NCBI GenBank assembly: GCA_003105035.1
Contig: PQAL01000003.1
Span: 124,001 to 188,000 of the forward strand
Length of the DNA: 64,000 nt
Direction of reading: 5' to 3'
From: Anaerolineales bacterium
GTDB lineage: Bacteria > Chloroflexota > Anaerolineae > Anaerolineales > UBA4823
The notes beneath the pieces are model-generated. The model saw nothing but the letters and a program-made list of their open reading frames with translations, did not search any database and was not told where the DNA came from. Each line of letters starts with the position of its first letter. Position 1 is the first letter of the stretch. Positions 14,255 to 40,637 of this stretch are shown here, piece after piece. Both the position numbers and the translations under genes were made by a program.

Positions 14255-14886
14255 TTACGCCTCCCCTACCGCAATTCTCCCTAACGCCTTTCCAAACCTT
14301 TTGATCTCTTCTACAGTGTTGTAATGCACCGGCCCAACCCGTATCATCCCGCCTGAATCCTCCAGCCCCAGGCGCTCGGTAACCCCCAGGGCATAGTAAT
14401 TTCCATCCCATACGAAGATGTTTACCTCATCCAGCTCCTCAGCGACCTGGCGGGGAGATTTCCCTTTCAGGGTGAAGGCGCAGGTAGGCACGCGTTCCTC
14501 CAAACGTCTGGTGTCTGTGATCCCGTAGATTTTCACACCAGGCGTCTCCGCCAGGATATCCAGGAGAGCCCGGCTGAGCTCATACTCATAACTGCGGATG
14601 GCAGTCATGCCCAGCTTGAAATTCAGTCTACGCCCGCTGTACTCATCCGCATAACGTTCAGCATGCTCGACGCCGTATGTCTCGCCCACCCATTCGATAT
14701 ACTCCAGTGCACCCAGCACCCCACACATGCCCTCGAAGTTACCGGTGCCCGTCTCGAACTTTCCAGGAGGCTCCTGGGGAGCCGGGCGGACCCTGTAAGC
14801 TGTGAGCCTATCCAGCAGGTCATAACGCCCGTACAACACCCCCATGTGCGGCCCGAAGAATTTGTTTTGCGAGACGCAATGAGCAA
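14255..14886 (-). pseudogene. C-terminal half of a broken class V aminotransferase
   Basis: The frame reads KFFGPHMGVLYG..., the segment around the PLP-lysine, to the end of the protein, about residues 218-418 of the intact paralogue at 18184-19443, which it matches closely throughout. Homology ends near 14886 and an in-frame stop occurs at 14903. An ATG at 14845 could give a 196-residue product but it would lack the N-terminal half and, starting there, the PLP-lysine itself. The matching N-terminal piece lies head to head on the other strand at 15021. Confidence 0.85.
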
Positions 14887-18183: not shown

Positions 18184-19443
18184 TTAACCCGCCGTAATCC
18201 TCCCCAACACCTCCCCAAACCTCCTGATCTCTTCCAGCGTATTGTAATGCACCGGACCTACCCGCACCATGCCGCCACTGTCCTCCAACCCCAGCCTCTT
18301 GGTGACCTCCAGGGCATAGTAATTCCCGTCCCATACGTAAATATTGGCTTCATCCAGCTGCTCGGCCACCTGGCGTGGAGATTTACCTTGTAACGTGAAC
18401 GCACAGGTGGGCACACGCTCCTCAAGGCGTTTAGTGTCCTTGATGCCATAGACGGTCACGCCGGGCGTCTCCGCTAAGATATCCAGGAGGGCGCGACTTA
18501 ATTCGAACTCGTAGGCGCGGATGGCGCTCATCCCCAGCTTGAAGCTCAAACGGCGACCGTTATACCCTACCGCATAACGCTCGGCGTGCTCCTCCCCGTA
18601 GGTCTCGCCCACCCACTGGAGGTATTCCAGCGCACCGAGCACCCCGCACATCCCCTCGAAGTTGCCCGTGCCGGTCTCGAACTTGCCGGGGGGGTCTGAG
18701 GGGGCAGGCCGCACCTTGTAGGCGGTCAAGCGGTCGAGCAGGTCGTACTTCCCATACAGCACCCCCATGTGCGGGCCGAAGAATTTATATGACGAGCATA
18801 CCAGGAAATCACTATCCAGGCGCTGCACATCGATCGGACCGTGTGGGGCGTACTGCACTGCGTCGATATAGACCAGCGCACCAGCCTCGTGGGCCATACG
18901 CGTGATTTGATCCACCGGGTTGACCGTCCCCAGTGCGTTGGAGGCATACCCGACCGCCACCAGGCGCGGCTTTTTCTCAATGGCTGCCTGCATTGCTTCC
19001 ATATCCAATGTGCCATCTTCGGCATGAAAATCCACCCTGATCACCTCACAACCCCGGTCTTCAGCCGCCATCACCCACGGGGTGACGTTAGCGTCGTGAT
19101 CCAGCCAGGTAACCACGATCCGGTCACCGGGGTTGAATGTGCGTACCAGCGAGCGGCTTATATTGAAGGTTAAACTGGTCATATTCGGGCCAAAGACGAT
19201 TTCATGGGGGTCGGAGGCATTCAAGAAGTCCGCAGCAGCCTGGCGCGTTTCTTCCACCAAGGCATCAGATTCGCGGCTGGTGGTGAATGCTCCTTCGTGG
19301 TTGGCGTTATGCTTCACCAGGTAATCCTGCATGCGGTCAAGCACGGTGCGCGCCACTTGAGTGCCAGCCGGGTTATCCAGGTAGATGCAATCACGGCTGA
19401 GGGCAGGGAATTGTGAGCGAATTGCGGTCAGATCGAGCGGCAT
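18184..19443 (-). CDS. Class V aminotransferase, cysteine-desulfurase-like
   Basis: 419 residues, full length, PLP-dependent. Residues 1-35 match the start typical of the VC1184-type cysteine-desulfurase-like subfamily; the PLP lysine is Lys220 in SSYKFFGPHMG; DHDANVTPW (about 121-129) and VDAVQYAPHG (about 200) are cofactor-site segments. The substrate is not established; desulfurase action on cysteine is possible by homology but no partner Suf/Isc gene lies nearby. AGGAG is 8 nt before the ATG. Relatives are present as broken pieces at 9005, 14255 and 15021. Confidence 0.92.
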   Translation of the reverse strand: MPLDLTAIRSQFPALSRDCIYLDNPAGTQVARTVLDRMQDYLVKHNANHEGAFTTSRESDALVEETRQAAADFLNASDPHEIVFGPNMTSLTFNISRSLVRTFNPGDRIVVTWLDHDANVTPWVMAAEDRGCEVIRVDFHAEDGTLDMEAMQAAIEKKPRLVAVGYASNALGTVNPVDQITRMAHEAGALVYIDAVQYAPHGPIDVQRLDSDFLVCSSYKFFGPHMGVLYGKYDLLDRLTAYKVRPAPSDPPGKFETGTGNFEGMCGVLGALEYLQWVGETYGEEHAERYAVGYNGRRLSFKLGMSAIRAYEFELSRALLDILAETPGVTVYGIKDTKRLEERVPTCAFTLQGKSPRQVAEQLDEANIYVWDGNYYALEVTKRLGLEDSGGMVRVGPVHYNTLEEIRRFGEVLGRITAG

Positions 19444-27902: not shown

Positions 27903-28577
27903 TTAGCTTTCCTTCGGCCTACCCAACAGGTCAGCTAATTTGCTCACCTGGGAGGCATGCACCAGGGCGATGATCTCATCCACCGGGGCGAGCTCTGTGT
28001 TACCATTTGGCACAATCAGCTGTCCTTTACGGATGACCGCGGCAAAGACACATTGGGGCGGAAGATCGATATCCCTGAGCGTCTTGCCAACCACGACTGC
28101 CCGAGGGTCCACCTTTTCTTCCACGATTGAAAATTCGCCCTTGCGCAATTTCATTAAGGTCATCATGTCACCAATGGACATCTCTTCTGCAATCAGCTTA
28201 GCCAGGATGTCTGACTGGCATAAAGCCACATCCACACCCATCTCGGGAGTGAACAGCCAGACGTTCTTGGGGTTATTTACCCGGGCAATGATGCGCGGCA
28301 CCCCAAACTCAAAGCGCCCCAGCGTGGTGATTACCAGGTTGTCTTCATCTTCACCGGTTACCGCAGCCAGCACCTGGGCTTGCTCTATTCCTGCACTTTC
28401 CAATACCTTCGGCGAGCTACCATCGCCAGCGATTACCACCTCTTTGGGTAGCTCTTCCCGCAACCTCTCCAGCACAGCCGGACGATCTTCGATCAGAATA
28501 ATCTTATGACCTCCGCTGATCAATTGCGCAGCGAGCTGTGAGCCCGTTTTTCCACCACCAACAATGATAACAAACAT
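27903..28577 (-). CDS. trkA: TrkA-family K+ transport regulatory protein (second copy)
   Basis: 224 residues: an N-terminal Rossmann RCK domain with VIIVGGGKTGSQLA (3-16) and the acidic LIEDRP end of strand 2, which binds NAD(H) or nucleotides, then a TrkA-C domain (about 140-220). Such proteins gate K+ channels or transporters. It starts 1 nt after the upstream trkA stop, with AAGGAGG before the ATG. It is the last gene of the cation operon that begins with the P-type ATPase. Confidence 0.92.
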   Translation of the reverse strand: MFVIIVGGGKTGSQLAAQLISGGHKIILIEDRPAVLERLREELPKEVVIAGDGSSPKVLESAGIEQAQVLAAVTGEDEDNLVITTLGRFEFGVPRIIARVNNPKNVWLFTPEMGVDVALCQSDILAKLIAEEMSIGDMMTLMKLRKGEFSIVEEKVDPRAVVVGKTLRDIDLPPQCVFAAVIRKGQLIVPNGNTELAPVDEIIALVHASQVSKLADLLGRPKES

Positions 28578-28578
28578 C

Positions 28579-29238
28579 CTACCCTCCTTCTTCCAACCCT
28601 AATAACGTCTTCAATCGCTCCAATGATGAAGCTGCGACCGCTGCATGAACCAGATCGCCTTCCTTGAACTGGCTTCCAAGGGTGGGGATAAACGCCGCTC
28701 CCTGGCGAGTAATGGCGATGATACCGATCTCGCTCGACACAGTCAGGTCTCGCACTATCCGGCCTGCCAGCTGTGGTGGTAGCTCGATACTGACCAGGCT
28801 CACTTCTCCACTTCCAAAACTGAATTGCGGGTCGAGCTCAGCGGAGGTGAGCAGCTCACGCAGGCGTTCGGCACCCCAGGTGGTGGAAGAGATGGTCAGC
28901 ATGCCCAGGCGGCGATAGATTTCAGCCCGTTGAGGGTCAAATAAGCGCGCCACAACCCTTGGCACGTGAAAAATATTATGGGCGATGCGGGCGGCTACGA
29001 TATTGGCATTATCGGAAGAGCTGGCAGCCGCAAATGCATCCGCCTGTTCGATACCCGCCCTGACCAAAACATCCCGGTCAAATCCCACACCAACCACTTT
29101 TTGCCCCTTGAAACCCGGCCCCAAGCGCTCCAACGCACTGGCCTCATAATCAATCACCGCCACCTGGTGTCCCTCATCCACGAGCAGGCGGGCCAGTTGT
29201 TCGCCCACCCGACCGCACCCCATCACAATAATCTTCAT
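28579..29238 (-). CDS. trkA: TrkA-family K+ transport regulatory protein (first copy)
   Basis: 219 residues. Rossmann motif VMGCGRVGEQLA (5-16) with acidic VIDYEA, then a TrkA-C domain. Its ATG overlaps the stop of the P-type ATPase (4 nt), with AGGAGG upstream, so the two are translationally coupled. No TrkH/KtrB pore subunit is in the window; by position the pair could regulate the ATPase or the APC/KUP-type permeases upstream. Confidence 0.92.
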   Translation of the reverse strand: MKIIVMGCGRVGEQLARLLVDEGHQVAVIDYEASALERLGPGFKGQKVVGVGFDRDVLVRAGIEQADAFAAASSSDNANIVAARIAHNIFHVPRVVARLFDPQRAEIYRRLGMLTISSTTWGAERLRELLTSAELDPQFSFGSGEVSLVSIELPPQLAGRIVRDLTVSSEIGIIAITRQGAAFIPTLGSQFKEGDLVHAAVAASSLERLKTLLGLEEGG

Positions 29239-32078
29239 ATTTCCTCCTTGCTGATATTCGTGTTGATCACCTGATGAACAAAACGTTCACGGAAACGGAA
29301 CAGCATCTTCAATATCCAATCCATACCATAGATAACAACTGGGAAAATGACCAGTCCAATCCAAATAATTGGCGGAATGGGCACATTCCCAAACAGCTCT
29401 GCCAGTGGTTTAAAATAGATCAAGCCAATGAGAATCACCAGATCAATCGCTATGCCACGCAGCAAGGTTGGGTTGCTCAGCCAGCCCAGGTAGCGCCCGC
29501 GATTACGCTCAGTCCGGCAGGCAAATGCGTTGCCAACCTGGGCCATGACCACCCCAGCATAAAACACCGTCATCGCCAGGCTGTTCTGGGATTCGTGCGG
29601 AATATGCGAGAAGACCTGGTCGTGCAAAGGTTGCAGATATGCGATATCCAGCCCGTTATTGATAAAGAAAAAGGCAGCAAAACACAGCAAGGCTTCGAGT
29701 AACCCCAACCACAGGAATGCCCGCCGGAGCAATCTACCGTCTACCAGAGGTTGGGTCTTCGGCCTCGGAGGGCGCTGCATGACATCCGGCTCGGGGTTCT
29801 CGCTTCCCAAGGCCAGAGCCGGGAACAGGTCAGTTCCCAGGTCAATCGCCAGGATCTGCCTGACACCCAGAGCAAGGGGCATCACTGCCGGTGACAGCAG
29901 GGCCGTCAGGATGAACGGCAGGATCTCGGGCACATTGCTGGAGAAGATATAGGTGGTAAATTTCCGCAGGTTGTCGTATACCGTCCGGCCCTCTTCAATC
30001 GCCTGGGCAATAGTTGAGAAGTTGTCATTGGTAAGGATGATATCGGCAGCTTCCTTGGCAACATCCGTACCGACCAACCCCATAGCCACCCCCACATCTG
30101 CCTTACGTAGGGCAGGGGCATCATTGACTCCATCGCCGGTCACTGCCACCACATTACCGCGTGATTGGAAAGCGGCCACCAAGCGGAGCTTGTGCTCAGG
30201 TGCCATACGCGCAAAAATCACTTCCTTGTCCAGCATTCCCTGGATCTCGAAATCGTTGAGCTGCTCAAATTCTGCCCCGGTGAGGATCAATGGGTTGGAT
30301 GTCGTGAGCATGCCAATACGCCGAGCCAGCGACTCGGCTGTCAGCCCATAATCCCCCGTGATCATTACCATGCGCACGCCTGCCTTACGGCAAGTGTTCA
30401 CCGCTTCAGTGACTTCCGGCCGCGGTGGGTCCATCATCGCCATCAAGCCCAGGAAGACCAGGTTCGTCTCAACCCTATCAAGTGAATAACTCCCTACGCG
30501 AGGCGGCAGTTCCTGGTAAGCCAGGGCTAATACCCGCAGGGCATTACGTGCATAATCATCATTTGCCGATAGGATATGGTTACGCCAGGTATTATCGAGG
30601 GGAATAACCTCGCCATGCATCCGAATATATGTACATAGCTGCAGCACTTCCCGTGGAGCACCTTTAATGAACGCTACTTGCTGTCGGGCAGCGATTTCTG
30701 TAAACGCCTCGTCTGGCCGGCTCACCTGGTGAATGGTGCTCATCCGCTTACGCCGGGCATCGAATGGGATCTCATGAATGCGTGGCAGGGTTTTGCTCAC
30801 CGTTTCCTGCTCCAGGCCAGCTTTCATGGCTACCACACGCATAGCCGCCTCAGTCTGGTCACCCAACACGGTCCATTGCGGATGGTCGGGGGCTGGAGGG
30901 TTCAAACGCGAGTTGTTGCACATCAGGGCTGCGATGAGCAATGCCTGCAGGTCCTTCTCGGTTGCCGGGCTGCCCGGATTAGGGATAAACTCTCCCTTTG
31001 GCTCATATCCGGTCCCGGTTACAACGAGTGGTTTCCCACTCACCCACATCTGCCTGACGGTCATCTGATTTTGGGTCAGGGTGCCACTCTTATCGGTGCA
31101 GATGACAGATACATGCTCCAGGGTTTCCAAGATGGACAGTTTCTTCACCAGCACACCCTTCTGAGCCAGCCGCTGCACGGCGGCAGCCAGTGAAAGGGTG
31201 ACCGTGGCAGGTAGACCTTCTGGGATAGCAGCTACAATGATGCCGAGAGCCAGAATAAATGCCTCATTCATGCCTAGTTTGACATCGATTGTGCCCACTG
31301 CAAAAACGATCACGCCCAGGCTTAAAGCAATTATAGAAATAATTCGCGTCAGGCGCGACATCTCCTGTTGCAGACGGCTGGGTTCTTCACGAACAGCCTG
31401 AGTGAGACGCACGATGCGGCCGAACTGGGTCAGCATGCCGGTGGCATACACCACCGCCCGGCCTGTCCCTGAAACCACCGATGTGCCTGCGAAGATCAGG
31501 TTTGGTCGTTCCACCTCGCTGATGCCCTCACGCAGGGAGGCGTCCGCAGTTTTTCGTGCCGGCACCGCCTCGCCGGTGAGCACCGCATTATTGGCGCGCA
31601 GACCATATTCTTCCACCACCCTGGCATCCGCCGGGATATTATCGCCCTCTGCCAGGACTAATAAATCACCTGCCACCAGCTCACTGGCAGGCACTTTCAC
31701 CTCAACCGCATCGCGTACCACTCTGGCAAAACTGGGCAACAGGTGTTGCAGCGCGGCCGTAGCCTGTTCAGCGCGGTACTCTCTCCAGAACGAGAAGCCG
31801 GCATTCACCAATACCACGATCCAGATGATCACCCCCAGGGTGGGTTCACCCAGCCATAAGGCGATCCCGCCAGCCAGCCATAATAGCAGTGCCATAGGAT
31901 GGGTAATGAATCCCAATATTTTTCTTCCAATAGGCTGGCGGGGCATCTCCGAAATCTGGTTGCTGCCGTAGAGCGAGCGGCGCTCCTCCACTTCGTGGGT
32001 GGTCAAACCATCGGGGCAGGTTTCCAAAGAAGCATAGACTTCGGAAACAGGGAGCGTATAGATGGGGTCGGAAACCAT
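29235..32078 (-). CDS. P-type cation ATPase, P2 class, Na,K-ATPase-like
   Basis: 947 residues. Order: N-terminal cation-ATPase domain, TM1-2, actuator domain with TGEAVPA (about 168), TM4 PEGLPATVT, phosphorylation motif DKSGTLTQN with Asp329 (Ser where Thr is usual), nucleotide-binding domain with KGAPREV, TGDGVNDAPAL hinge, TM5-10. TM5-6 read NVPEILPF and ILAIDLGTD (Asp746, Asp750), closer to the Na,K-ATPase pattern than to the SERCA pattern NLVTD. It therefore may move K+ and/or Na+; this is inference. Start has no Shine-Dalgarno; a 14-bp hairpin ends 3 nt before the ATG. Leads an operon with two trkA genes. Confidence 0.9.
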   Translation of the reverse strand: MVSDPIYTLPVSEVYASLETCPDGLTTHEVEERRSLYGSNQISEMPRQPIGRKILGFITHPMALLLWLAGGIALWLGEPTLGVIIWIVVLVNAGFSFWREYRAEQATAALQHLLPSFARVVRDAVEVKVPASELVAGDLLVLAEGDNIPADARVVEEYGLRANNAVLTGEAVPARKTADASLREGISEVERPNLIFAGTSVVSGTGRAVVYATGMLTQFGRIVRLTQAVREEPSRLQQEMSRLTRIISIIALSLGVIVFAVGTIDVKLGMNEAFILALGIIVAAIPEGLPATVTLSLAAAVQRLAQKGVLVKKLSILETLEHVSVICTDKSGTLTQNQMTVRQMWVSGKPLVVTGTGYEPKGEFIPNPGSPATEKDLQALLIAALMCNNSRLNPPAPDHPQWTVLGDQTEAAMRVVAMKAGLEQETVSKTLPRIHEIPFDARRKRMSTIHQVSRPDEAFTEIAARQQVAFIKGAPREVLQLCTYIRMHGEVIPLDNTWRNHILSANDDYARNALRVLALAYQELPPRVGSYSLDRVETNLVFLGLMAMMDPPRPEVTEAVNTCRKAGVRMVMITGDYGLTAESLARRIGMLTTSNPLILTGAEFEQLNDFEIQGMLDKEVIFARMAPEHKLRLVAAFQSRGNVVAVTGDGVNDAPALRKADVGVAMGLVGTDVAKEAADIILTNDNFSTIAQAIEEGRTVYDNLRKFTTYIFSSNVPEILPFILTALLSPAVMPLALGVRQILAIDLGTDLFPALALGSENPEPDVMQRPPRPKTQPLVDGRLLRRAFLWLGLLEALLCFAAFFFINNGLDIAYLQPLHDQVFSHIPHESQNSLAMTVFYAGVVMAQVGNAFACRTERNRGRYLGWLSNPTLLRGIAIDLVILIGLIYFKPLAELFGNVPIPPIIWIGLVIFPVVIYGMDWILKMLFRFRERFVHQVINTNISKEEI

Positions 32079-32081
32079 AAG

Positions 32082-32116
32082 ACAATCGCTATGCGCTGTA
32101 AACGCATAGCGATTGT
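32082..32116 (-). promoter_or_regulatory. Perfect 14-bp dyad abutting the P-type ATPase start codon
   Basis: ACAATCGCTATGCG and CGCATAGCGATTGT pair perfectly with a 7-nt loop, ending 3 nt before the ATG at 32078. On the minus strand a TACAAT box overlaps the outer 5' arm (32112-32117). There is no U-tract after the stem, so it is a poor terminator for the permease upstream; an operator or an RNA structure controlling translation is more likely. Confidence 0.6.
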
Positions 32117-32157: not shown

Positions 32158-33984
32158 TCAGGGAAGATGGCCTTCGGGGGCTGGGGCAGTTTCCTTAGGT
32201 TTCCCACCCAGGTGAGGCGCAGGGGTCGGTTGCAGATATTTTACCAACAAGGAAGGCGAATCCGGATCGTCTGAATGAACCGCATGATCGTAATCACCCG
32301 CCGGGATAGGCTGTTCGTACCGCAACGGCCGGCGCACACCGAGAAGCTCAAAGAATCGTGAGATTAGCACCAGCACAGAATAGCGGTATTCCTGCATCTT
32401 CAAGGACTGCCATTCAACGATAGAGCCCATCGAACCTTGCACACGCGCCTTTTCCCTTACAATACGATGGATCTGCCTTGGGTCACGCTGTCCAATAGGA
32501 GAAATCAACAAGGTGTTCGCTGCTACAACCAGAACGCTGAATGAGATCAGCACCACCCATCCGCCTTCAGTCCACTTTCCAATGATTTGCCCAACAAATA
32601 CGATGGCAGCTAACACGGCCGCGAATCCTGCTGCCCGGCTGCCCCATAGGCGTGCTCTACCCGTATGTGTGGCAAGGATATGCTTTCGAATAGCCAGCCC
32701 CATCACCATAATTGGCATAAACACGCCTACGCCATAGTATGGCACCGCCAGGGTGGTCTTCCCGCGCACCAAGAACTGGATAATCACCGCGACGATGAAG
32801 CCGGCAGTCACAGAACGTGTGAACGTGCCCTGCGAATTACGGTAGACAACCACCTCGGGGATTTCTCCGATAGCAACATCTCGCCAGGCGGTTGCCTGCA
32901 AATCCTGGAAGGCGGTCATCGAGGCTGCAGCCAGGAGTGCTACTGCCAGGATTTGATATGCCCAAAACAAGATCTGCCCACCAGGGAGCTGGTTGAAACC
33001 GATAAATGCCAGGTTGCCAACCAGGGTGCGCCCCAAAGTTCCATCAAAGACATTGAAACGGATCGCAAACGATGCCAGCATCAGGGTGGTTATGCCACCA
33101 TAAAACAAGAAAGAAGTCTGGACGAATCTTCCAATGCCCGATTTACCGCTGTAAAACTCCCATAATTTCTTGAGACGCGGTAATCGTCTCTTCCCCCAGC
33201 GAACAATACCAGCATCTTCATTCTTCACGAACTGGATGCCATTAGACATGGCTTCCAGGCCGCTGAGAGCTACCAGTCCTTTCATGGAAGCGGTCAGCAT
33301 ATGATAGGCGGCTTGTCCCAGCGTGGCTGGCCTAATCGCTTCAGTGGTTACCACCGCCGCGACACCCCGGAAATTGGCAGCGACAAGGCCTCCAAATAGT
33401 GTGATGGTTAACAGGATAAATATACTTAACATGATAAATACAACCCGGGCTGATTCACCCCTCCCACGGATCGTCAGCCACCAAGTTACTGCTGCCAGGG
33501 CTGCCCCGATGGCAAAGTGCCATACCCAATGGATATCATATTTTCCAAGGATGGAAAGTAGCTGGTCGACACCCGACAGGGATGACACAACAATGGTAAA
33601 TATATAGTCCTGGATCAATACAACTGCTACGATCAGGCTTAGTGCAGGAGTCAAATAACGCATGGAAGCAGTATAAGACCCACCTCCTTCATTGAAGGTG
33701 CCCAGCGAATACATGTAGAGAGCCCCAAAAACCGCGTTTGCGAGGGCAATGACCGCCACAGCTATATACCCATAGCGTTGCAGACCATATGGATGAAGGG
33801 CACTCATCATCTCACCGGTGGCGTAGAAGAAAGAGGTGAAATAATCCACCCCGAAAAGCGCCACTGCCGCTAATAAGCCAATTTGCCCCGCGCCATGAAC
33901 GTGGGTATCCTCAGCCCGTTCTCGTGGCGAGAGCTTCCATGAAAAGTAGACAATAACCAATAGAAGACCAATAGAAATCAACAT
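32158..33984 (-). CDS. APC-superfamily (KUP/KimA-like) permease, copy 1
   Basis: 608 residues with about 12 membrane helices over residues 1-480 and a cytosolic C-terminal tail rich in charge and Pro. The segments VDYFTSFFYATGEM, TFNEGGGSYTASMRY and IQDYIFTIVVSSLSGVDQL resemble the first helices of APC transporters such as KimA, a K+ importer. The ion or solute carried is not proved. It shares high similarity with the permease at 35279. It follows the unknown-protein gene at 33995 by 10 nt and is probably co-translated with it. Confidence 0.85.
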   Translation of the reverse strand: MLISIGLLLVIVYFSWKLSPRERAEDTHVHGAGQIGLLAAVALFGVDYFTSFFYATGEMMSALHPYGLQRYGYIAVAVIALANAVFGALYMYSLGTFNEGGGSYTASMRYLTPALSLIVAVVLIQDYIFTIVVSSLSGVDQLLSILGKYDIHWVWHFAIGAALAAVTWWLTIRGRGESARVVFIMLSIFILLTITLFGGLVAANFRGVAAVVTTEAIRPATLGQAAYHMLTASMKGLVALSGLEAMSNGIQFVKNEDAGIVRWGKRRLPRLKKLWEFYSGKSGIGRFVQTSFLFYGGITTLMLASFAIRFNVFDGTLGRTLVGNLAFIGFNQLPGGQILFWAYQILAVALLAAASMTAFQDLQATAWRDVAIGEIPEVVVYRNSQGTFTRSVTAGFIVAVIIQFLVRGKTTLAVPYYGVGVFMPIMVMGLAIRKHILATHTGRARLWGSRAAGFAAVLAAIVFVGQIIGKWTEGGWVVLISFSVLVVAANTLLISPIGQRDPRQIHRIVREKARVQGSMGSIVEWQSLKMQEYRYSVLVLISRFFELLGVRRPLRYEQPIPAGDYDHAVHSDDPDSPSLLVKYLQPTPAPHLGGKPKETAPAPEGHLP

Positions 33985-33994
33985 GTATTTTTAC

Positions 33995-35116
33995 CTATCT
34001 GAGAAAAGCTAGCTCAAGGGAATGTAATTCTGTTAAGAGATGTCTACGGGTAGTAATGCTCAAACAATCATCCTGAGCCACCTTGATTTGTTGCTCACGT
34101 GCAGCTAAAACCGCAAAGGCAGGAATAAACATAATCCAGCCAGAAGGGATAACTGTGAATTCATAATTATCAATAGAATTTTTCTTGTCATTGAAATATG
34201 GTAACCTGAGACTTAACCCCCGATCCAATCTATGGTCTGCTGCCCTTCTTTGGATATTCTTGATGATCTCATGAGTTTGGTAAGCAGCCAGTGCGCGCCC
34301 CTGGTTTACCATCTGCCCAAGGATTCCGTAATGTTTTTGCTGCCAGGCTTCATCAGCAATCATAAATGGAGCAATTTGGACCGCCTGTTCCAGGAGAAGC
34401 AGATATTTTTGTAACGAAGCAATATAGGCCTGTGCCTCTTGGATGCTGTTCAACAATAGCTTGCCCTGTTCGTCAAAGGCCACCCATTTTGGCAGGAAGA
34501 AACGATTCGCTGCTTCCACATAGGGTGCAGCAATTCTGTCTACTACTACAGCAGCCAAGGTTTCATGAGTAAGTACAGATCTCTGAGCAGTACTTTTCCG
34601 CTGAGCGTCCTCATGAACTGGTTGATTGGGAATGTCGTCTCCTTCTAAGATGGCATACGTCACCGATTTTCCGGCCGGAAGCAAGCGGTAGATGATATGA
34701 TAAGCAATCGCATAGCGTAACAGCCCTGCCGCGATGGATATTGCCACATCCGTTGAATGCTCAAGCGCAGAAAGTCTTTGAACAATTGCATTGCATAGAT
34801 CGAATTGCAACCAAGGGGCATGCAGTCCGCCTACACTTTGCTCTCGGTGGTCAGCAGGTATCCTCTCAACACGATCCATCGTCTCCATGGTAGGACTGAA
34901 ATACACCTGGTCTGGAAGGGCAAAACGAACGCGGTAGTTTCCTTGCGTGATGGCCTCAGCCACGGATATAGCCTGCAAAAGTAAATACTGCTGCTGCAGC
35001 ACCGGTTGGATTTGGAATAATTGCTGATAGGCCTCATATTCCAGACGTAACCGGCTGGTCGAGCTTTCTGATAGCCCCGATGCAGATAATTCTAATAACA
35101 GGGACTGCTCTATCAT
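33995..35116 (-). CDS. Unknown cytosolic protein paired with permease, copy 1
   Basis: 373 residues from the ATG at 35116, chosen because GAAGGAG lies 7-8 nt upstream; a longer start at 35143 lacks one. No signal peptide or membrane helix. It is clearly paralogous to the 37151 protein: matching blocks are LLRYAIAYHIIYRLLPAGKS (about 124-143), YGILGQMVNQGRALAAYQTH (about 270), DRGLSLRLPYFND (about 303) and a C-terminal EF(T/E)VIPxGxIMF. I do not recognise the family. Its constant place directly before a permease suggests a partner or regulator of transport. Confidence 0.75.
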   Translation of the reverse strand: MIEQSLLLELSASGLSESSTSRLRLEYEAYQQLFQIQPVLQQQYLLLQAISVAEAITQGNYRVRFALPDQVYFSPTMETMDRVERIPADHREQSVGGLHAPWLQFDLCNAIVQRLSALEHSTDVAISIAAGLLRYAIAYHIIYRLLPAGKSVTYAILEGDDIPNQPVHEDAQRKSTAQRSVLTHETLAAVVVDRIAAPYVEAANRFFLPKWVAFDEQGKLLLNSIQEAQAYIASLQKYLLLLEQAVQIAPFMIADEAWQQKHYGILGQMVNQGRALAAYQTHEIIKNIQRRAADHRLDRGLSLRLPYFNDKKNSIDNYEFTVIPSGWIMFIPAFAVLAAREQQIKVAQDDCLSITTRRHLLTELHSLELAFLR

Positions 35117-35224
35117 AAATTTCTCCTTCCGTAGGAAAACCAAGCATACGATTCCGACATTATTATTGTAGTGAACTGAAATAAAATGGGGACAAAATTA
35201 TTGAGCAAAGGTGTTAAAAAATAA

Positions 35225-35256
35225 TTAAGACCTTCTCCGACACGAGAAGGTCTTAA
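35225..35256 (-). terminator. Intrinsic terminator after permease copy 2
   Basis: Perfect 13-bp inverted repeat TTAAGACCTTCTC / GAGAAGGTCTTAA with a 6-nt loop, 23 nt past the permease stop. On the minus strand it is followed by TTATTTTTTAAC. It separates the second unknown/permease pair from the first. Confidence 0.88.
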
Positions 35257-35278
35257 ATATGTTTAGAGGAAGTGATTT

Positions 35279-37108
35279 CTAAAGCTTAGGGATATCTTCG
35301 TCCCCAGGAGCTGTGTCTTTGGGCTTTCCACCCAGGCGAGGCTCTTCCCTTTTATCATCCAGGTATTGTTCTAAGAGGGAAGGGATGTCTTCCTCTTCCG
35401 ATTGGATGGCTTCTTCATACTCTCCTGCAGGCACAGGCGGCTCAAACCGGGCTGGCCGGCGCACACCAAACAACTCGGCAAAGCGTGCAATGCCAATCAG
35501 CAACTGGTAACGGTATTCCTGTGTGCGTAATGATTGCCATTCGACAATATTGCCCATAGGCCCTTGGACCCGAGATTTGTCACGAATGATGCGATGGATC
35601 TGGCGCGGATCACGATACCCGGCAGGTGACAACAAGATGGCGTGTGCAATCAAGATTAAAACGCTGAGTGAAATTAGTACTACCCAGCCGCCTTCAGCCC
35701 ATTTACCGACAATCTGACCCACAAATATCAATGCTGCTAACACAGCAGCAAGAGTTGCCCCCAGGCTCCCCCAAAAGCGCGCCTTTCCAATTGCGGTTTT
35801 CAGGATATGCTGGCGGATTGCCAGCCCCATCGCCATGATTGGCAAGAATACGCCCACACCATAATACGGCACAGCCAAACTGACATTGCCGCGCACCAAT
35901 AATTGGATCAAAATTGCCGCCAGGGCAGCCGCCGTCACCGGGCGTGTAAAGGTTCCTTTTGGATTTCGGTATACGACCACTTCAGGAATCTCTCCAATAG
36001 CTACATTCCGCCAGGCCATGGCTTGCAGGTCCTGGTAGGCTGTCATCGAAGCTGAAGCCAACAATACAACCGCCAGGATTTGGTAAGCCCAGAATAATAT
36101 TGTTCCTCCAGGAATCTGTCCAAAACCGATAAAGGAAAGGTTCCCAACAAGACTTCGTCCATTGATACCATCAAAGACATTGAAGCGTATCGAGAAATAG
36201 GTCAACAGCAAGGTCGTCAGACCACCATAGAACAAAAATGAGGTTTGAACAAACCTGCCAATACCCGATTTTCCGCCGTAGAAATTCCAAAGCTTGTTGA
36301 GGCGGGGCAGGCGCTTTTTGCCCCACTTTACCAGGCGCACATCGTCATTGATAACAAATTGAATGCCATTTGACATGGCTTCCAAACCGCTTAATGCCAC
36401 CAGGCCTTTCATGGAGGCGGTTAACAGGTGGTAAAAAGCCTGGCTGAGCGTCACCGTTTGGGTGGGTTCAACGGTTTTCGCCGCCTCCGTTAGAGGATTT
36501 GCAATGATCAAGCCAACTGTCATTGCGATGGTCAGCAGGACAAAAATCCCTAACATGGTGAACACCACCTGGGCAGACTCACCCCTGCCGCGGATGGTCA
36601 GCCACCAAGTGACACCTGCCAGGCTGGCACCGATGAGGAAGTGCCAGAACCAGGGGATGCCCGTGGCATTTCTCAATGAAAGCAGCTGGTCAACCCCCGA
36701 CAGGGTAGACACGACGATGGTAAAGATATAATCCTGGATTAATACTACTGCCACAATCAGGCTCAATGAAGGCCCCAAATACCGCATGGCTGCAGTAAAA
36801 GATCCCCCCCCTTCGTTGAAAACCCCCAACGAATACATGTACAGCACTCCAAACACAAAGTTCGCCAGGGCAATCACTGCCACGGAGATATAGGCATATT
36901 TTTGCAAGCCGTATGGGTGTAAGGCGGTCATCATTTCCCCTGTGGCATAAAAGAACGAGGTGAAATAATCCACGCCAAACAACGCAACCGCAGCGAGCAA
37001 ACCAACCTGCCCGGCGCCATGGACATGTGCATCTTCTTCTTTCTCCCGCGGTGCAAGCCGGTAGGAGAGAAAGATGATTACTGCAAGGAGGATGATAGAA
37101 AAAAACAT
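35279..37108 (-). CDS. APC-superfamily (KUP/KimA-like) permease, copy 2
   Basis: 609 residues, paralogous along its whole length to the 32158 permease, including VDYFTSFFYATGEM, FNEGGGSFTAAMRY and the tail GGKPKDTAPGDED. About 12 membrane helices. It lies 42 nt after its partner gene 37151. A TATAAT box 6 nt before its ATG suggests an internal, leaderless promoter in addition to read-through. Transport substrate unproven; K+ is suggested by the KdpDE-like genes upstream and TrkA genes downstream. Confidence 0.85.
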   Translation of the reverse strand: MFFSIILLAVIIFLSYRLAPREKEEDAHVHGAGQVGLLAAVALFGVDYFTSFFYATGEMMTALHPYGLQKYAYISVAVIALANFVFGVLYMYSLGVFNEGGGSFTAAMRYLGPSLSLIVAVVLIQDYIFTIVVSTLSGVDQLLSLRNATGIPWFWHFLIGASLAGVTWWLTIRGRGESAQVVFTMLGIFVLLTIAMTVGLIIANPLTEAAKTVEPTQTVTLSQAFYHLLTASMKGLVALSGLEAMSNGIQFVINDDVRLVKWGKKRLPRLNKLWNFYGGKSGIGRFVQTSFLFYGGLTTLLLTYFSIRFNVFDGINGRSLVGNLSFIGFGQIPGGTILFWAYQILAVVLLASASMTAYQDLQAMAWRNVAIGEIPEVVVYRNPKGTFTRPVTAAALAAILIQLLVRGNVSLAVPYYGVGVFLPIMAMGLAIRQHILKTAIGKARFWGSLGATLAAVLAALIFVGQIVGKWAEGGWVVLISLSVLILIAHAILLSPAGYRDPRQIHRIIRDKSRVQGPMGNIVEWQSLRTQEYRYQLLIGIARFAELFGVRRPARFEPPVPAGEYEEAIQSEEEDIPSLLEQYLDDKREEPRLGGKPKDTAPGDEDIPKL

Positions 37109-37114
37109 GGTCGG

Positions 37115-37120
37115 ATTATA
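37115..37120 (-). promoter_or_regulatory. -10 box 6 nt before permease copy 2 start
   Basis: TATAAT on the minus strand, then CCGACC and ATG. No Shine-Dalgarno. Confidence 0.5.
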
Positions 37121-37150
37121 AATACACCAATCTGGTCATCAGGGATGGAA

Positions 37151-38281
37151 TTACTTTGTAAATGCCTTTTCGAGGATATTTAGCAGTTGCAGCAAGTGAT
37201 GCCGTGTTGATTGGCTCAGTCTTGTGTCCTGCGCAATCTTGGCTTCCTGTTCGCGAGCTGCCCGCACTACAAAGGCGGGTACGAACATGATCCTGCCGGC
37301 TGGGATGACTTCGAAGTTATAACTTTCCATCGTCAAGGTCTGGTCGTTGAAGTAAGGCAGGCTAAGGCTTAATCCACGATTCAGGTCATGCGCCGTGGCA
37401 CGTTTCTGTATCGTCTGGATGATCTCCTCCACATCATAGCGTGCCAATGCGCGGCCCTGGTTCACCAGCTGACCAAGGATGCCATAGCGCTTGCGTTGAT
37501 ACTCTTCATCCGCAACCATGTATGGGGTCAGCCCTACCGCGGCATGTAACACCAATAAGTATCGTTGCATGGAGGCGATGTCCGCTTCAGCCTCGCTCAC
37601 GCTACCCACCAGCAAATGACCTTCGTCATCAAAAGCCACCCACTGTGGCAGGTAAAAGCGCCGGGCTGCCTCCACATATGGGACTAATAACTCTCCCCGC
37701 CCTGCTTCAAGACGATTTTCTTCTGCTGCAATCGCATCTGTGGAAGCGGTAATGGCCGATTCAGGCTCTAATTTCCTCTTCTCCGGAATATTGGGGATTT
37801 CTTCTCCTTCCCCAGCGGTGTAATGCACCGACCGGCCGGCTGGCAGCATGTTGTGAACCATGTGCCCAGCGATGGCATGGCGGAGAAGCCCTGCGCTCAC
37901 CGAAACAGAGCGGGTGGAAGATTGTTCCAATTCACTCAGTCTCAGCCGTAGGGCTGTGCGCAGATCGGTGCGCATCAGCCGGTCCATCAACCCCCCAGTC
38001 ATTTGCTCGCGCGACTCATTGGGTACTACAGCAGGTTTTGCCTCGGCATCTTTCTGAAGCACCACCCGGTCTGGAAGGGTAAAACGCACTTGAGGCAAGC
38101 CTTGGATGATGGCTTCAGCTACAGACGAGGCTTGCGTTTCCAGAAAACGCTGTACCAGGGGTGGTTGTGCCTGGAATAGCTCCTGGTAACCCAAATACTC
38201 TTGCTTTAACTGGCTGACGGCGTCGTTTTCTAAACCAGGGTATCGATTTTCTGATTTCGTGGATTGAGCCTGTTTTGCCAT
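37151..38281 (-). CDS. Unknown cytosolic protein paired with permease, copy 2
   Basis: 376 residues from the ATG at 38281 (GGGAG 6-7 nt upstream), preferred over 38293. Paralogue of the 33995 protein, with the same blocks: LLRHAIAGHMVHNMLPAGRS, YGILGQLVNQGRALARYDVE, NRGLSLSLPYFND, NFEVIPAGRIMFVPAFVVRA. Helix-rich, charged, no membrane segment. It starts 35 nt after the KdpE-like gene, so it is likely in the same transcript as the sensor kinase pair. Function unknown. Confidence 0.78.
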   Translation of the reverse strand: MAKQAQSTKSENRYPGLENDAVSQLKQEYLGYQELFQAQPPLVQRFLETQASSVAEAIIQGLPQVRFTLPDRVVLQKDAEAKPAVVPNESREQMTGGLMDRLMRTDLRTALRLRLSELEQSSTRSVSVSAGLLRHAIAGHMVHNMLPAGRSVHYTAGEGEEIPNIPEKRKLEPESAITASTDAIAAEENRLEAGRGELLVPYVEAARRFYLPQWVAFDDEGHLLVGSVSEAEADIASMQRYLLVLHAAVGLTPYMVADEEYQRKRYGILGQLVNQGRALARYDVEEIIQTIQKRATAHDLNRGLSLSLPYFNDQTLTMESYNFEVIPAGRIMFVPAFVVRAAREQEAKIAQDTRLSQSTRHHLLQLLNILEKAFTK

Positions 38282-38316
38282 GACTTCTCCCAAATTACCA
38301 ATTTTCTCCTCTTATC

Positions 38317-39027
38317 TTATCTCAAATCTTGCTCATCCGCAATGAAACGATAGCCGATTCCTGGTTCATTGCGAATAACTTGGGGATGATCTGGATCGAT
38401 CTCCAATTTCTTGCGCAGCTGGCGGATATATACCCGCAGGTATTCCACGCGGTCAGATTCTGCCGGGTCCCACACATGTGATAGGATGGATTGGTTGGTC
38501 AACACCCGCCCGGCGTTGGCTGCCAGGTATGCCAGCAGCTTGAATTCCGTGGCTGTTAATTTAATTTCTTCACCATCCCGCTGAACTGTGTGCATCGCCA
38601 GGTCGATCACCACCGGGCTGGCATGGATAATCTGGTTATTCTGCGGGCCGAGTGTCTGTGCGGAGTGGCGGAGAGCCACGCGGATGCGCGCCAGCAACTC
38701 TTCGATACCAAATGGTTTTGTCAGGTAGTCATCCGCTCCTTTGTCGAGGGCAATAACTTTATCTCTCTCGCTTTCCCGCACCGATAGAATGATGATCGGT
38801 ACCCGGGTCCATTCGCGCAGGCGGGCACACACCTCAACCCCATCCATATCTGGCAGGCTGAGGTCGAGTATGACCAGGTCTGGTGGTTGCGCGGCTGCCA
38901 TAGCCAGCCCCTCCTCGCCCCGGCTGGCCACGCTCACTTTGAATTGTTTGGCAGTCAGGATGGTGCGTAACGCCCGCAAAATCTGCGCTTCATCATCGAT
39001 CACAAGAATATGCGGTTGGGTGGTCAT
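38317..39027 (-). CDS. kdpE: KdpE-like response regulator
   Basis: 236 residues: receiver domain with acidic pocket Asp11/Asp12, phosphoacceptor Asp55 (VILDLSLPDMDG) and Lys104-region TKPF, then an OmpR-type winged helix (TATEFKLLAYLAANAGRVLT about 153-172; RQLRKKLEIDP). KdpE proteins activate K+-uptake genes under K+ limitation. Its start overlaps the kinase stop (ATGA). No kdpFABC is visible; likely targets are the permease and ATPase genes just downstream. Confidence 0.92.
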   Translation of the reverse strand: MTTQPHILVIDDEAQILRALRTILTAKQFKVSVASRGEEGLAMAAAQPPDLVILDLSLPDMDGVEVCARLREWTRVPIIILSVRESERDKVIALDKGADDYLTKPFGIEELLARIRVALRHSAQTLGPQNNQIIHASPVVIDLAMHTVQRDGEEIKLTATEFKLLAYLAANAGRVLTNQSILSHVWDPAESDRVEYLRVYIRQLRKKLEIDPDHPQVIRNEPGIGYRFIADEQDLR

Positions 39028-40520
39028 TCGTCAATCAGCTCCGGTTTAATATCATGAGAGAACCCTTCCCATGTCAGTGGTAAGGTGAAGTTGAAAGCAA
39101 AACCCAGCTCAATGTTTTCTGCCCAGATATGCCCCCCATGCGCTTCTACGATCCCTTTGCAGATGCTCAATCCCAAACCAGCTCCGGTTACCTTGTCCGC
39201 TGCAGTCACCCGATGGAATTTATCAAAAATGCGTTCGAGATCATCCTGCGGCACCTGTGGACCCTGGTTACTTACCCTCACTTGGAGCATATCTCGTCTC
39301 GTCTGAAATGCGTGGAGGCGTATGGTGGTGCCTTCAGGTGAATACTTTACCGAGTTGCTTATCAAGTTGATGAAGACTTGTTCGATCTGAAAATAATCTA
39401 CAGGCAACAACGGCAAATCTGATGAGACATCAATTTCTACGTGATGCTTCTCGATCTTGGTTTTCATCCGGTCGAGGGCACTCGATAAGATCTCAGCCAG
39501 TGAATTCCAGCTGCGCTCCGGCTTCATGGCCCCGGCCTCAATACGCGACATATTGAGCAGGTTTCCTACCAGCTGGTTGAGATGGTCGGTTTCCTCTTCG
39601 ACTGCTGCCAACAGATCCTTGCGCCCTTCGCTGTCCCATTCCACAGTTTCGCTACGCAGGCTGGTGACTGCCGCTTTAATCGTCGCCAATGGAGTGCGAA
39701 GTTCGTGTGAGACAGACGACAGAAGAGATGATTTAAACCGGTCACTCTCTTCCAGCAACCGCGCCCGTGAGGCTGCCTGCGAGAGGCGCACCCGTTCCAG
39801 AGCCAGCACTCCCTGGCTGGCGAAGGTGTTCAACAGGCGCTCTTCTGATGTCCCTAATTTGGAATCTTCCCTCCAAACTTTTATCTCTCCCATAAACCCC
39901 CGCATAGACTGCAAGGGAATGATCATCATGGGAGCATGCTCTGCTTCCGGATTTATTTGAGAGCGGTCCTCCAGCCTAACATGCCGGGCGGGAACTTCGT
40001 TGGATGCCTCAATAACGATATCCACCCGCTGGGCATGTAAGGTGATCAAGGTTTGTTCAGCCAGGGCAGAGATGATTTCTTGTTCGTCCTGCAAACCCGC
40101 TAAAAGCATAATGAGCTCATACAGGTGAATGGCTTCATGTTCTCGAGCAGTCGCTTCAGCCAGGCTTTTACTGACCCTGCCAACCAGCTGGCCGATGGTG
40201 ATGGACACGCCTAAGAAGACGATCAGCACCAGCAAGTCTTGCGTCCGGTGCACCACTAATGTGTAGTAAGGCGGCACAAAGAAATAATTTAATGCTAAAA
40301 AAGAGGTTACGGCAGCCAGGGCCCCTGGCCACAATCCCCATAGCAGCGAACAGATAACTACCGGGAGCAGGTATAGCAGCGAAAGGACGGTATGGTCCTG
40401 CCCACTTTCGCTCCGAAGAGGGATGAAGATGACGGTAAAAACCGCAGTCATAAGGATGGAGAGCAGATACTCTAGTCCTGGGGGTTTATTTATTTTGGTA
40501 AAGGGGAACATGCGCATCAT
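39024..40520 (-). CDS. KdpD-like sensor histidine kinase lacking the N-terminal KdpD/Usp domains
   Basis: 498 residues if started at the ATG at 40520, which has TATAAT 7 nt upstream; the frame extends to 40559. It begins directly with the DUF4118-type four-helix membrane domain (about 10-110), then a GAF-like domain (about 135-255), HisKA with His272 in SVSHELRTPL, and an HATPase domain (NSVKYSPEGT, GAGLGLSICKGIVEAHGG). Full KdpD has a ~400-residue cytosolic K+/Usp region before the helices; it is missing here, so input sensing must differ. Operon with kdpE. Confidence 0.92.
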   Translation of the reverse strand: MMRMFPFTKINKPPGLEYLLSILMTAVFTVIFIPLRSESGQDHTVLSLLYLLPVVICSLLWGLWPGALAAVTSFLALNYFFVPPYYTLVVHRTQDLLVLIVFLGVSITIGQLVGRVSKSLAEATAREHEAIHLYELIMLLAGLQDEQEIISALAEQTLITLHAQRVDIVIEASNEVPARHVRLEDRSQINPEAEHAPMMIIPLQSMRGFMGEIKVWREDSKLGTSEERLLNTFASQGVLALERVRLSQAASRARLLEESDRFKSSLLSSVSHELRTPLATIKAAVTSLRSETVEWDSEGRKDLLAAVEEETDHLNQLVGNLLNMSRIEAGAMKPERSWNSLAEILSSALDRMKTKIEKHHVEIDVSSDLPLLPVDYFQIEQVFINLISNSVKYSPEGTTIRLHAFQTRRDMLQVRVSNQGPQVPQDDLERIFDKFHRVTAADKVTGAGLGLSICKGIVEAHGGHIWAENIELGFAFNFTLPLTWEGFSHDIKPELIDE

Positions 40521-40527
40521 CCGGATA

Positions 40528-40533
40528 ATTATA
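40528..40533 (-). promoter_or_regulatory. -10 box 7 nt before the kinase start (leaderless-type)
   Basis: TATAAT on the minus strand, then TATCCGG and ATG at 40520. This supports 40520 rather than 40559 as the start. Confidence 0.5.
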
Positions 40534-40637
40534 ACTTCACGGGCATAAACCTGTTCCATTATTGCCTGGCATTGTACTGCCTCTCAGGTTTAAACCGTGA
40601 ATCTGTAAATTTGTAAACGGATTGATACGGATAAGGG

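Follow-up and report, generated by a model that had tools for sequence, protein, structure and literature searches.

The locus considered here raises the question of what is done by a soluble protein of about 375 residues, belonging to no known family, that is encoded twice in close succession and each time ahead of a permease of about 609 residues. It lies within a 64,000 nucleotide stretch of an Anaerolineales genome (the window), in a single minus-strand cluster comprising, in order, a KdpD-like kinase, a KdpE-like regulator, UnkX-A, permease-A, a terminator, UnkX-B, permease-B, a Na,K-ATPase-like P-type ATPase and two TrkA proteins. UnkX is used as a label for the soluble protein, and a module consists of UnkX and its permease. 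The initial annotation described the modules as a tandem duplication of the pair and proposed that UnkX is a regulatory or energising subunit of the permease.

The region is a potassium-homeostasis cassette. The histidine kinase (39024..40559, minus strand, as for all features given below) has a DUF4118-HisKA-HATPase architecture (Pfam DUF4118 4e-27, HisKA and HATPase_c) and lacks the N-terminal KdpD domain PF02702, while its top NCBIfam model is KdpD (E 1.5e-77; 261 of 1123 bits, under the cut-off). The OmpR-type response regulator (38317..39027; Response_reg and Trans_reg_C) has KdpE as its top NCBIfam model (4.4e-72; 242 of 325 bits, also under the cut-off). Considering these equivalog scores and the missing PF02702, the two-component system is classified from its sequence as KdpDE-like, not as KdpDE. 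At the other end of the cluster, the type II P-type ATPase (29235..32078; Pfam E1-E2_ATPase and further domains) carries both Na,K-ATPase-type (IIC) M5/M6 cation-site motifs, SNxPExxPF and IDLGTD, and its M5-M6 fragment aligns best with the Na,K-ATPase alpha subunit. Its NCBIfam scores are under every subtype cut-off, and the IIC likeness concerns the motifs of this fragment, not ion specificity. It is followed by a TrkA/CeoB-like protein (28579..29238) and a second TrkA-like protein (27903..28577), each with TrkA_N and TrkA_C domains. No kdpABC genes stand beside the cluster and no TrkH is found within the window; kdpA and one TrkH are encoded elsewhere in the genome, which also encodes a DAC-domain c-di-AMP synthase and a full-length canonical KimA homologue (L039, E 1e-141). 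An Rfam scan of the window at gathering score yielded two tRNAs only, with no c-di-AMP or other riboswitch. The assignment to potassium is favoured by the KdpDE-like genes, the TrkA pair and the Na,K-type ATPase, together with the occurrence of UnkX-permease pairs inside Kdp-type operons of other genomes (L095, L100, L114, L115, L118), and the two-component system probably controls the cassette.

The permease is most readily interpreted as a divergent K+/H+ symporter of the KimA/KUP type. A PDB search returned KimA (6s3k) as the sole relevant match of permease-A (35279..37108), with an E-value of 8.7e-16 for the single sequence and 2.2e-19 for a profile, and no other transporter was matched. 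The equivalents of the KimA residues D36, Y43, D117, Y118, T121, S125, E233, T317 and Y377 do not vary among the 99 permeases compared, with Ser or Thr at the T230 position; the roles of these residues have been described for KimA (PMC6994465), where D36, Y43, T121, T230 and Y377 belong to the K+ site and the gate, and E233 to proton coupling. The proton-coupling E233 corresponds to E243 in permease-A and is a Glu in 99/99 sequences. Arg337, which contacts c-di-AMP in KimA and is not essential for inhibition (PMC10284832), is likewise a Glu in all 99, domain-bearing permeases included.

In KimA/KUP symporters, c-di-AMP throttles K+ uptake by way of a domain that is part of the transporter polypeptide. 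In the window permeases the C-terminal PPAT-like c-di-AMP-binding cytosolic domain of KimA is absent, and only a short tail follows the transmembrane domain. Among full-score permeases, only those of L037, L038 and L168-L171 showed a KimA-type cytosolic domain; they measure 748-775 aa and have a tail matching KimA 472-604 (L037, E 4e-16). The domain-less permeases have a common C-terminal peptide, AGDY..ALH.DHP.APS.L..YL, which is missing from the six domain-bearing ones.

UnkX itself has so far been seen only in Chloroflexota. UnkX-A (37151..38293; 376-380 aa) has a TTG start with an ATG at 38281, and UnkX-B (33995..35143) a TTG start with an ATG at about 35116. Profile searches with the two window copies matched no known family in Pfam or NCBIfam, no sequence match was found in the PDB, and 85 family members gave only scattered sub-threshold matches against the same databases. 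The protein shows no clear transmembrane pattern, with no hydrophobic segment over the threshold in UnkX-A and two marginal ones in UnkX-B. An AlphaFold2 model of UnkX-A is confident and globular (pLDDT 88.5, pTM 0.84); fold searches of the PDB with this model gave no convincing match (Foldseek E 0.31 at best; the top VIA hit had a Z of 5.1 across 112 residues at 6.2 A), a result which does not amount to proof of a new fold. Both halves of the model read helix-helix-strand-strand-helix-helix, and an internal duplication was rejected as lacking profile support (hhalign probability 0.1%). A small protein between the regulator and UnkX was also considered as a universal-stress-type domain, an assignment dropped for want of a Pfam match.

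The presence of two modules has been borne out, with all four ORFs on the minus strand and each member paralogous to its counterpart. UnkX-A and UnkX-B share 50% identity over 377 aa (E 1e-125), and permease-A and permease-B (32158..33984) share 72% over 605 aa, alignments far beyond chance; apart from the two modules, the genome contains no further UnkX gene and no further close permease gene. The separate starts described in the initial annotation correspond to distinct start codons. Its attribution of a terminator to the second copy holds by window coordinate, but in transcription order the intrinsic terminator at 35256-35225 (13-bp stem, 6-nt loop and U-run, with TTATTTTTTA after the stem; dG -21.3, z -6.2) closes the module transcribed first, behind permease-A. 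Downstream of permease-B, and just ahead of the ATPase start codon, comes a 16-bp hairpin without a good U-run (32116-32082; dG -28.8, z -3.4).

Duplication of the pair as one unit was not upheld. Permease-A belongs to an 'A-type' clade and permease-B falls outside it, and a tree joining them as sisters is rejected (lnL 86 lower, p-AU 0.00017). For UnkX-A and UnkX-B, sisterhood is neither rejected nor demonstrated (p-AU 0.845), UnkX-B being the faster-evolving paralogue (end branch 1.22 versus 0.31). That the whole pair was duplicated recently, and stayed together because each permease copy needs UnkX as an energising or regulatory subunit, is thus highly improbable: the modules do adjoin and the UnkX copies could be sisters, but apart from the rejected permease sisterhood, related arrays (L050, L052, L055, L058) end with the A-type permease, which in the window comes first. 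Recombination replacing one permease afterwards would rescue this explanation. Given the rejection of permease sisterhood, 'tandem duplication' describes the arrangement and not a demonstrated event.

Comparison across genomes, which drew on a genome scan with a nine-sequence profile, supports the proposed functional partnership in the form of a recurrent pair. Of the 80 loci in which the gene after UnkX can be read, 72 have a permease directly downstream of it, at a median gap of 24 nt; UnkX occurs in 65 of 400 genomes of the order, all 65 being among the 72 genomes with the permease. Modules arrayed in twos or threes also turn up repeatedly. A family widespread without permease neighbours was therefore not what was found. 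This order and spacing, kept tight across dozens of lineages, argue against a rival in which UnkX is just another member of the K+ regulon, a housekeeping protein or cytosolic enzyme that is not physically connected with any transporter. Genes of one regulon do not have to encode interacting products, but short forms keeping only the C-terminal domain still directly precede the permease (L055, L065), which speaks against a two-lobed enzyme, and this explanation is regarded as quite improbable. The pairing is not invariable: in L066, L073, L091 and L107 UnkX immediately precedes the P-type ATPase and no permease adjoins it. Together with the UnkX tree, which follows the ATPase and TrkA and not the permease, these loci speak against an exclusive permease subunit.

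In these trees the permease is the odd one out. Simple co-evolution with UnkX is weak (r 0.27 overall, and 0.42 and 0.18 when the permease types are taken separately), a first estimate from FastTree distances having given r 0.008, as against 0.76 between UnkX and the ATPase and 0.70-0.71 between UnkX and the TrkA proteins. In a 20-locus subset with kinase and regulator, the ATPase value reaches 0.86; the values for TrkA extend up to 0.83. UnkX might consequently work mainly with the P-type ATPase and the TrkA pair, in pump regulation or assembly, its position before the permease reflecting operon order as permeases come and go. The loci where UnkX adjoins the ATPase alone, and the order permease-UnkX-ATPase in L062 and L067, would also fit. 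However, UnkX-permease pairs occur with no ATPase in range, both in the Kdp operons and elsewhere (L093, L095, L100, L110, L114, L115, L118, L160, L034, L172), and in arrays UnkX multiplies alongside permeases, not ATPases, so that this role is considered unlikely. Much the same standing is given to a shared regulator or sensor of the K+ cassette, such as a ligand-binding adaptor, which would contact several transporters or the two-component system and be a dedicated subunit of none. At least one K+-cassette gene is present in 79/79 loci, the partner varies between permease, ATPase and Kdp operon, and L160 repeats a regulator-UnkX-permease unit; the tight UnkX-permease spacing and order, and the link between UnkX and the missing cis domain, favour the permease instead.

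The reading tentatively preferred here, though held with less than even confidence, is that UnkX acts in trans to regulate the K+-uptake cassette, with the permease as its main target. The C-terminal domain by which KimA is inhibited in cis would either have been lost from these permeases or never have been present in them, and UnkX, soluble and cytosolic, would most likely provide the control in trans. Its binding site would lie on the cytosolic side of the permease, perhaps at the conserved C-terminal peptide standing in for the domain, and it would gate transport in response to a cytosolic signal. Since UnkX stands alone before the ATPase in some loci and tracks the ATPase and TrkA trees, it may act on the pump as well. 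The exchange of cis for trans regulation is suggested by the restriction of the tail peptide to domain-less permeases and by the absence of UnkX from 6/6 domain-bearing ones, with 0/85 permeases preceded by UnkX reaching their length (Fisher 3e-5), a contrast that may represent only one or two evolutionary events and in which UnkX gain is inseparable from ATPase gain, as domain-bearing loci mostly lack the ATPase too. The soluble, globular character of UnkX and the DAC-domain synthase in the genome are also consistent with a regulator. Against regulation of the permease stand the poor tree agreement, the four loci without an adjacent permease and about ten internal domain-less permeases with no UnkX directly upstream. 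As to the two alternatives in the initial annotation, the regulatory one fits better; an energising subunit is disfavoured, as the permease keeps the proton-coupling Glu and the searches revealed no ATPase or other known domain in UnkX. A bolder proposal, considered unlikely, is that UnkX is an undescribed transport regulator, perhaps with a new fold, which replaces the built-in c-di-AMP domain as a separate subunit and also serves the Na,K-type ATPase, one soluble protein thereby gating two unrelated K+ importers. A lineage that lacks this domain and has an unannotated, separate protein linked to its transporter would illustrate how regulation can move from cis to trans, and would provide a first function for an orphan family of this distribution.

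Among known systems, KimA (YdaO) of Bacillus subtilis, a KUP-family transporter (PDB 6s3k, 8b70, 8b71), shares with the window permeases the LeuT/APC-type architecture and the conserved K+-coordinating, gating and proton-coupling residues. The window permeases differ in their weak overall similarity, the change of Arg337 to Glu, a short conserved tail in place of the cytosolic domain (KimA 462-606), an extra N-terminal hydrophobic segment and the partner UnkX; a search of the open-access literature returned no paper that connects KimA to Chloroflexota. The six domain-bearing loci, from other genomes of the order, have the same permease family and mostly a kinase-regulator pair and a TrkA pair, but carry the KimA domain in cis, with neither UnkX nor an adjacent type II P-type ATPase. 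The KdpFABC-KdpDE system resembles the cassette in its two-component system and can host UnkX-permease pairs within its operons, whereas the window kinase lacks PF02702 and has no kdpABC beside it. As in the Trk/CeoBC system of Mycobacterium tuberculosis (PMC6375644, PMC13163235), two single-unit TrkA proteins are encoded side by side; in the window, which contains no TrkH, this pair instead follows the genes for a KimA-like permease and a P-type ATPase.

The initial annotation's two UnkX/permease modules are both present in the window, where the soluble UnkX proteins (about 375 residues) are 50% identical and the permeases 72%. All genes of the cluster lie on the minus strand and comprise, in transcription order, a histidine kinase (40559-39024), a response regulator (39027-38317), UnkX-A (38293-37151) and permease-A (37108-35279), followed by an intrinsic terminator (35256-35225), UnkX-B (35143-33995), permease-B (33984-32158), a P-type ATPase (32078-29235) with the Na,K-like motifs SNVPEILPF and IDLGTD, and two TrkA proteins (29238-28579 and 28577-27903). 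A 16-bp hairpin without a good U-run (32082-32116, minus strand), a few bases 5' of the ATPase start codon, could regulate ATPase translation or serve as a weak terminator. A genome-wide search showed UnkX-A and UnkX-B to be the sole UnkX genes of the host. The next permease match, distant and on another contig, is a full-length canonical homologue of KimA, the Bacillus subtilis K+/H+ symporter of the KUP family (E 1e-141; L039:9048-10892), adjoined by neither UnkX nor K+ genes. Elsewhere in the window, a 196-aa ORF (14255-14845, minus strand) closely resembles the C-terminal half of a nearby 419-aa aminotransferase-like protein (18184-19443, minus strand) and looks like a truncated duplicate of it.

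The permease is not recognized by Pfam or NCBIfam profiles, and in the PDB only KimA gave a relevant match (E 8.7e-16; 2.2e-19 with a profile). In KimA, D36, Y43, D117, Y118, T121, S125 and Y377 bind or gate K+, while E233 couples protons (PMC6994465). Equivalents of these residues and of T317 are present and invariant in 99 related permeases, with Ser or Thr at the T230 position. Because these K+/H+ residues are conserved, the permeases are classed as putative KimA-type symporters, which would import K+ together with H+. The KimA cytosolic domain (residues 462-606), a c-di-AMP receptor (PMC10284832), is absent from the window permeases, and Arg337, a c-di-AMP contact in KimA, is Glu in 99/99 related permeases. 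Both window permeases carry an extra hydrophobic segment (residues 1-20) ahead of the first KimA-like helix.

UnkX has no relative in Pfam, NCBIfam or the PDB. An AlphaFold2 model (85 relatives) is confidently globular alpha/beta (pLDDT 88.5, pTM 0.84) and has no convincing structural counterpart in the PDB, a missing match that does not prove a new fold. No clear transmembrane pattern was found, with no segment over threshold in UnkX-A and two marginal ones in UnkX-B. The genome scan confirmed 112 relatives, almost all from metagenome-assembled genomes, with several loci reaching contig edges; the named hosts of the 79 scan loci are all Chloroflexota. Short forms (134-158 aa) retaining only the C-terminal ~100 residues precede permeases in loci L055 and L065, and this domain may therefore be the UnkX core.

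The pairing, originally read as a sign of functional partnership, recurs in other genomes: across the 79 loci, UnkX lies directly 5' of a permease in 72 of 80 readable cases (median gap 24 nt), the others being followed by a P-type ATPase (7/80) or another UnkX (1/80). Among 400 Anaerolineales genomes the permease occurs in 72 and UnkX in 65, all 65 of which have the permease, and a phylum-wide sample of 400 yielded UnkX in 7 and permease in 9, genome counts that do not equal independent events. In the chief rival reading, UnkX would work for the ATPase and TrkA instead. UnkX stands directly ahead of an ATPase with no adjoining permease at L066, L073, L091 and L107 (the L073 host has a permease elsewhere in the same assembly, L093), and pairwise distances over 44 loci correlate at r 0.76 between UnkX and ATPase and 0.70-0.71 with TrkA, against 0.27 with the permease (0.42 and 0.18 inside the permease types). 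UnkX-permease pairs also occur within Kdp-type operons that have no P-type ATPase (L095, L100, L110, L114, L115, L118), and UnkX may serve both sides. Permease distances correlate weakly with all cassette members (0.27-0.36); the permease appears to have been swapped between cassettes, with UnkX inherited alongside the remaining genes. At about 25 loci (e.g. L037:10676-11410, L052:5218-5928, L062:5465-6100), though not in the window, a second unannotated small protein (~210-245 aa) separates the response regulator from UnkX or the permease; it has C-terminal hydrophobic segments in most members and no Pfam match. In L030 and L032, a 1108-aa HAMP-GAF-PAS histidine kinase directly 5' of UnkX replaces the KdpD/KdpE-like pair of kinase and response regulator.

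Trees, from which contigs occurring in both collections were removed where recognised, place permease-A inside a well-supported clade (A-type) and permease-B outside it. Forcing the two as sisters costs 86 log units (p-AU 0.00017), whereas UnkX-A and UnkX-B may be sisters (p-AU 0.845), UnkX-B being a long branch. A simple duplication of the UnkX-permease unit, as had been proposed, thus does not account for the array. Comparable arrays, with two or three modules each, are present elsewhere (L050, L055, L052, L058, L160), and in these genomes the A-type permease is mostly last rather than first as in the window. In L160 (G706:C63) the repeated unit is response regulator-UnkX-permease, regulator included.

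Six permeases of 748-775 aa bear a C-terminal domain, found in 6/6 by a profile derived from L037 and L038; the L037 domain matches KimA 472-604 (E 4e-16). These six, which may represent one or two evolutionary events, have UnkX in 0/6 cases, and such lengths occur in 0/85 permeases with UnkX directly upstream (Fisher 3e-5, ignoring relatedness). In the remaining permeases the domain is replaced by a conserved tail, typically PAGDYDHALHVDHPEAPSLLEQYL...GGxPKxT, which is absent from the six and could be a docking site. The final GGxPKxT is missing from 3/3 permeases with short UnkX versus 16/74 with long UnkX, in a small, non-independent sample. Since the host genome encodes a DAC-domain c-di-AMP synthase, c-di-AMP is a plausible candidate ligand. 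Under the proposed mechanism, the KdpDE-like pair would set the response of the cassette to K+ limitation, the Na,K-like ATPase and TrkA pair would be additional transport or regulatory components, and UnkX would regulate the permease in trans, doing what KimA does in cis.
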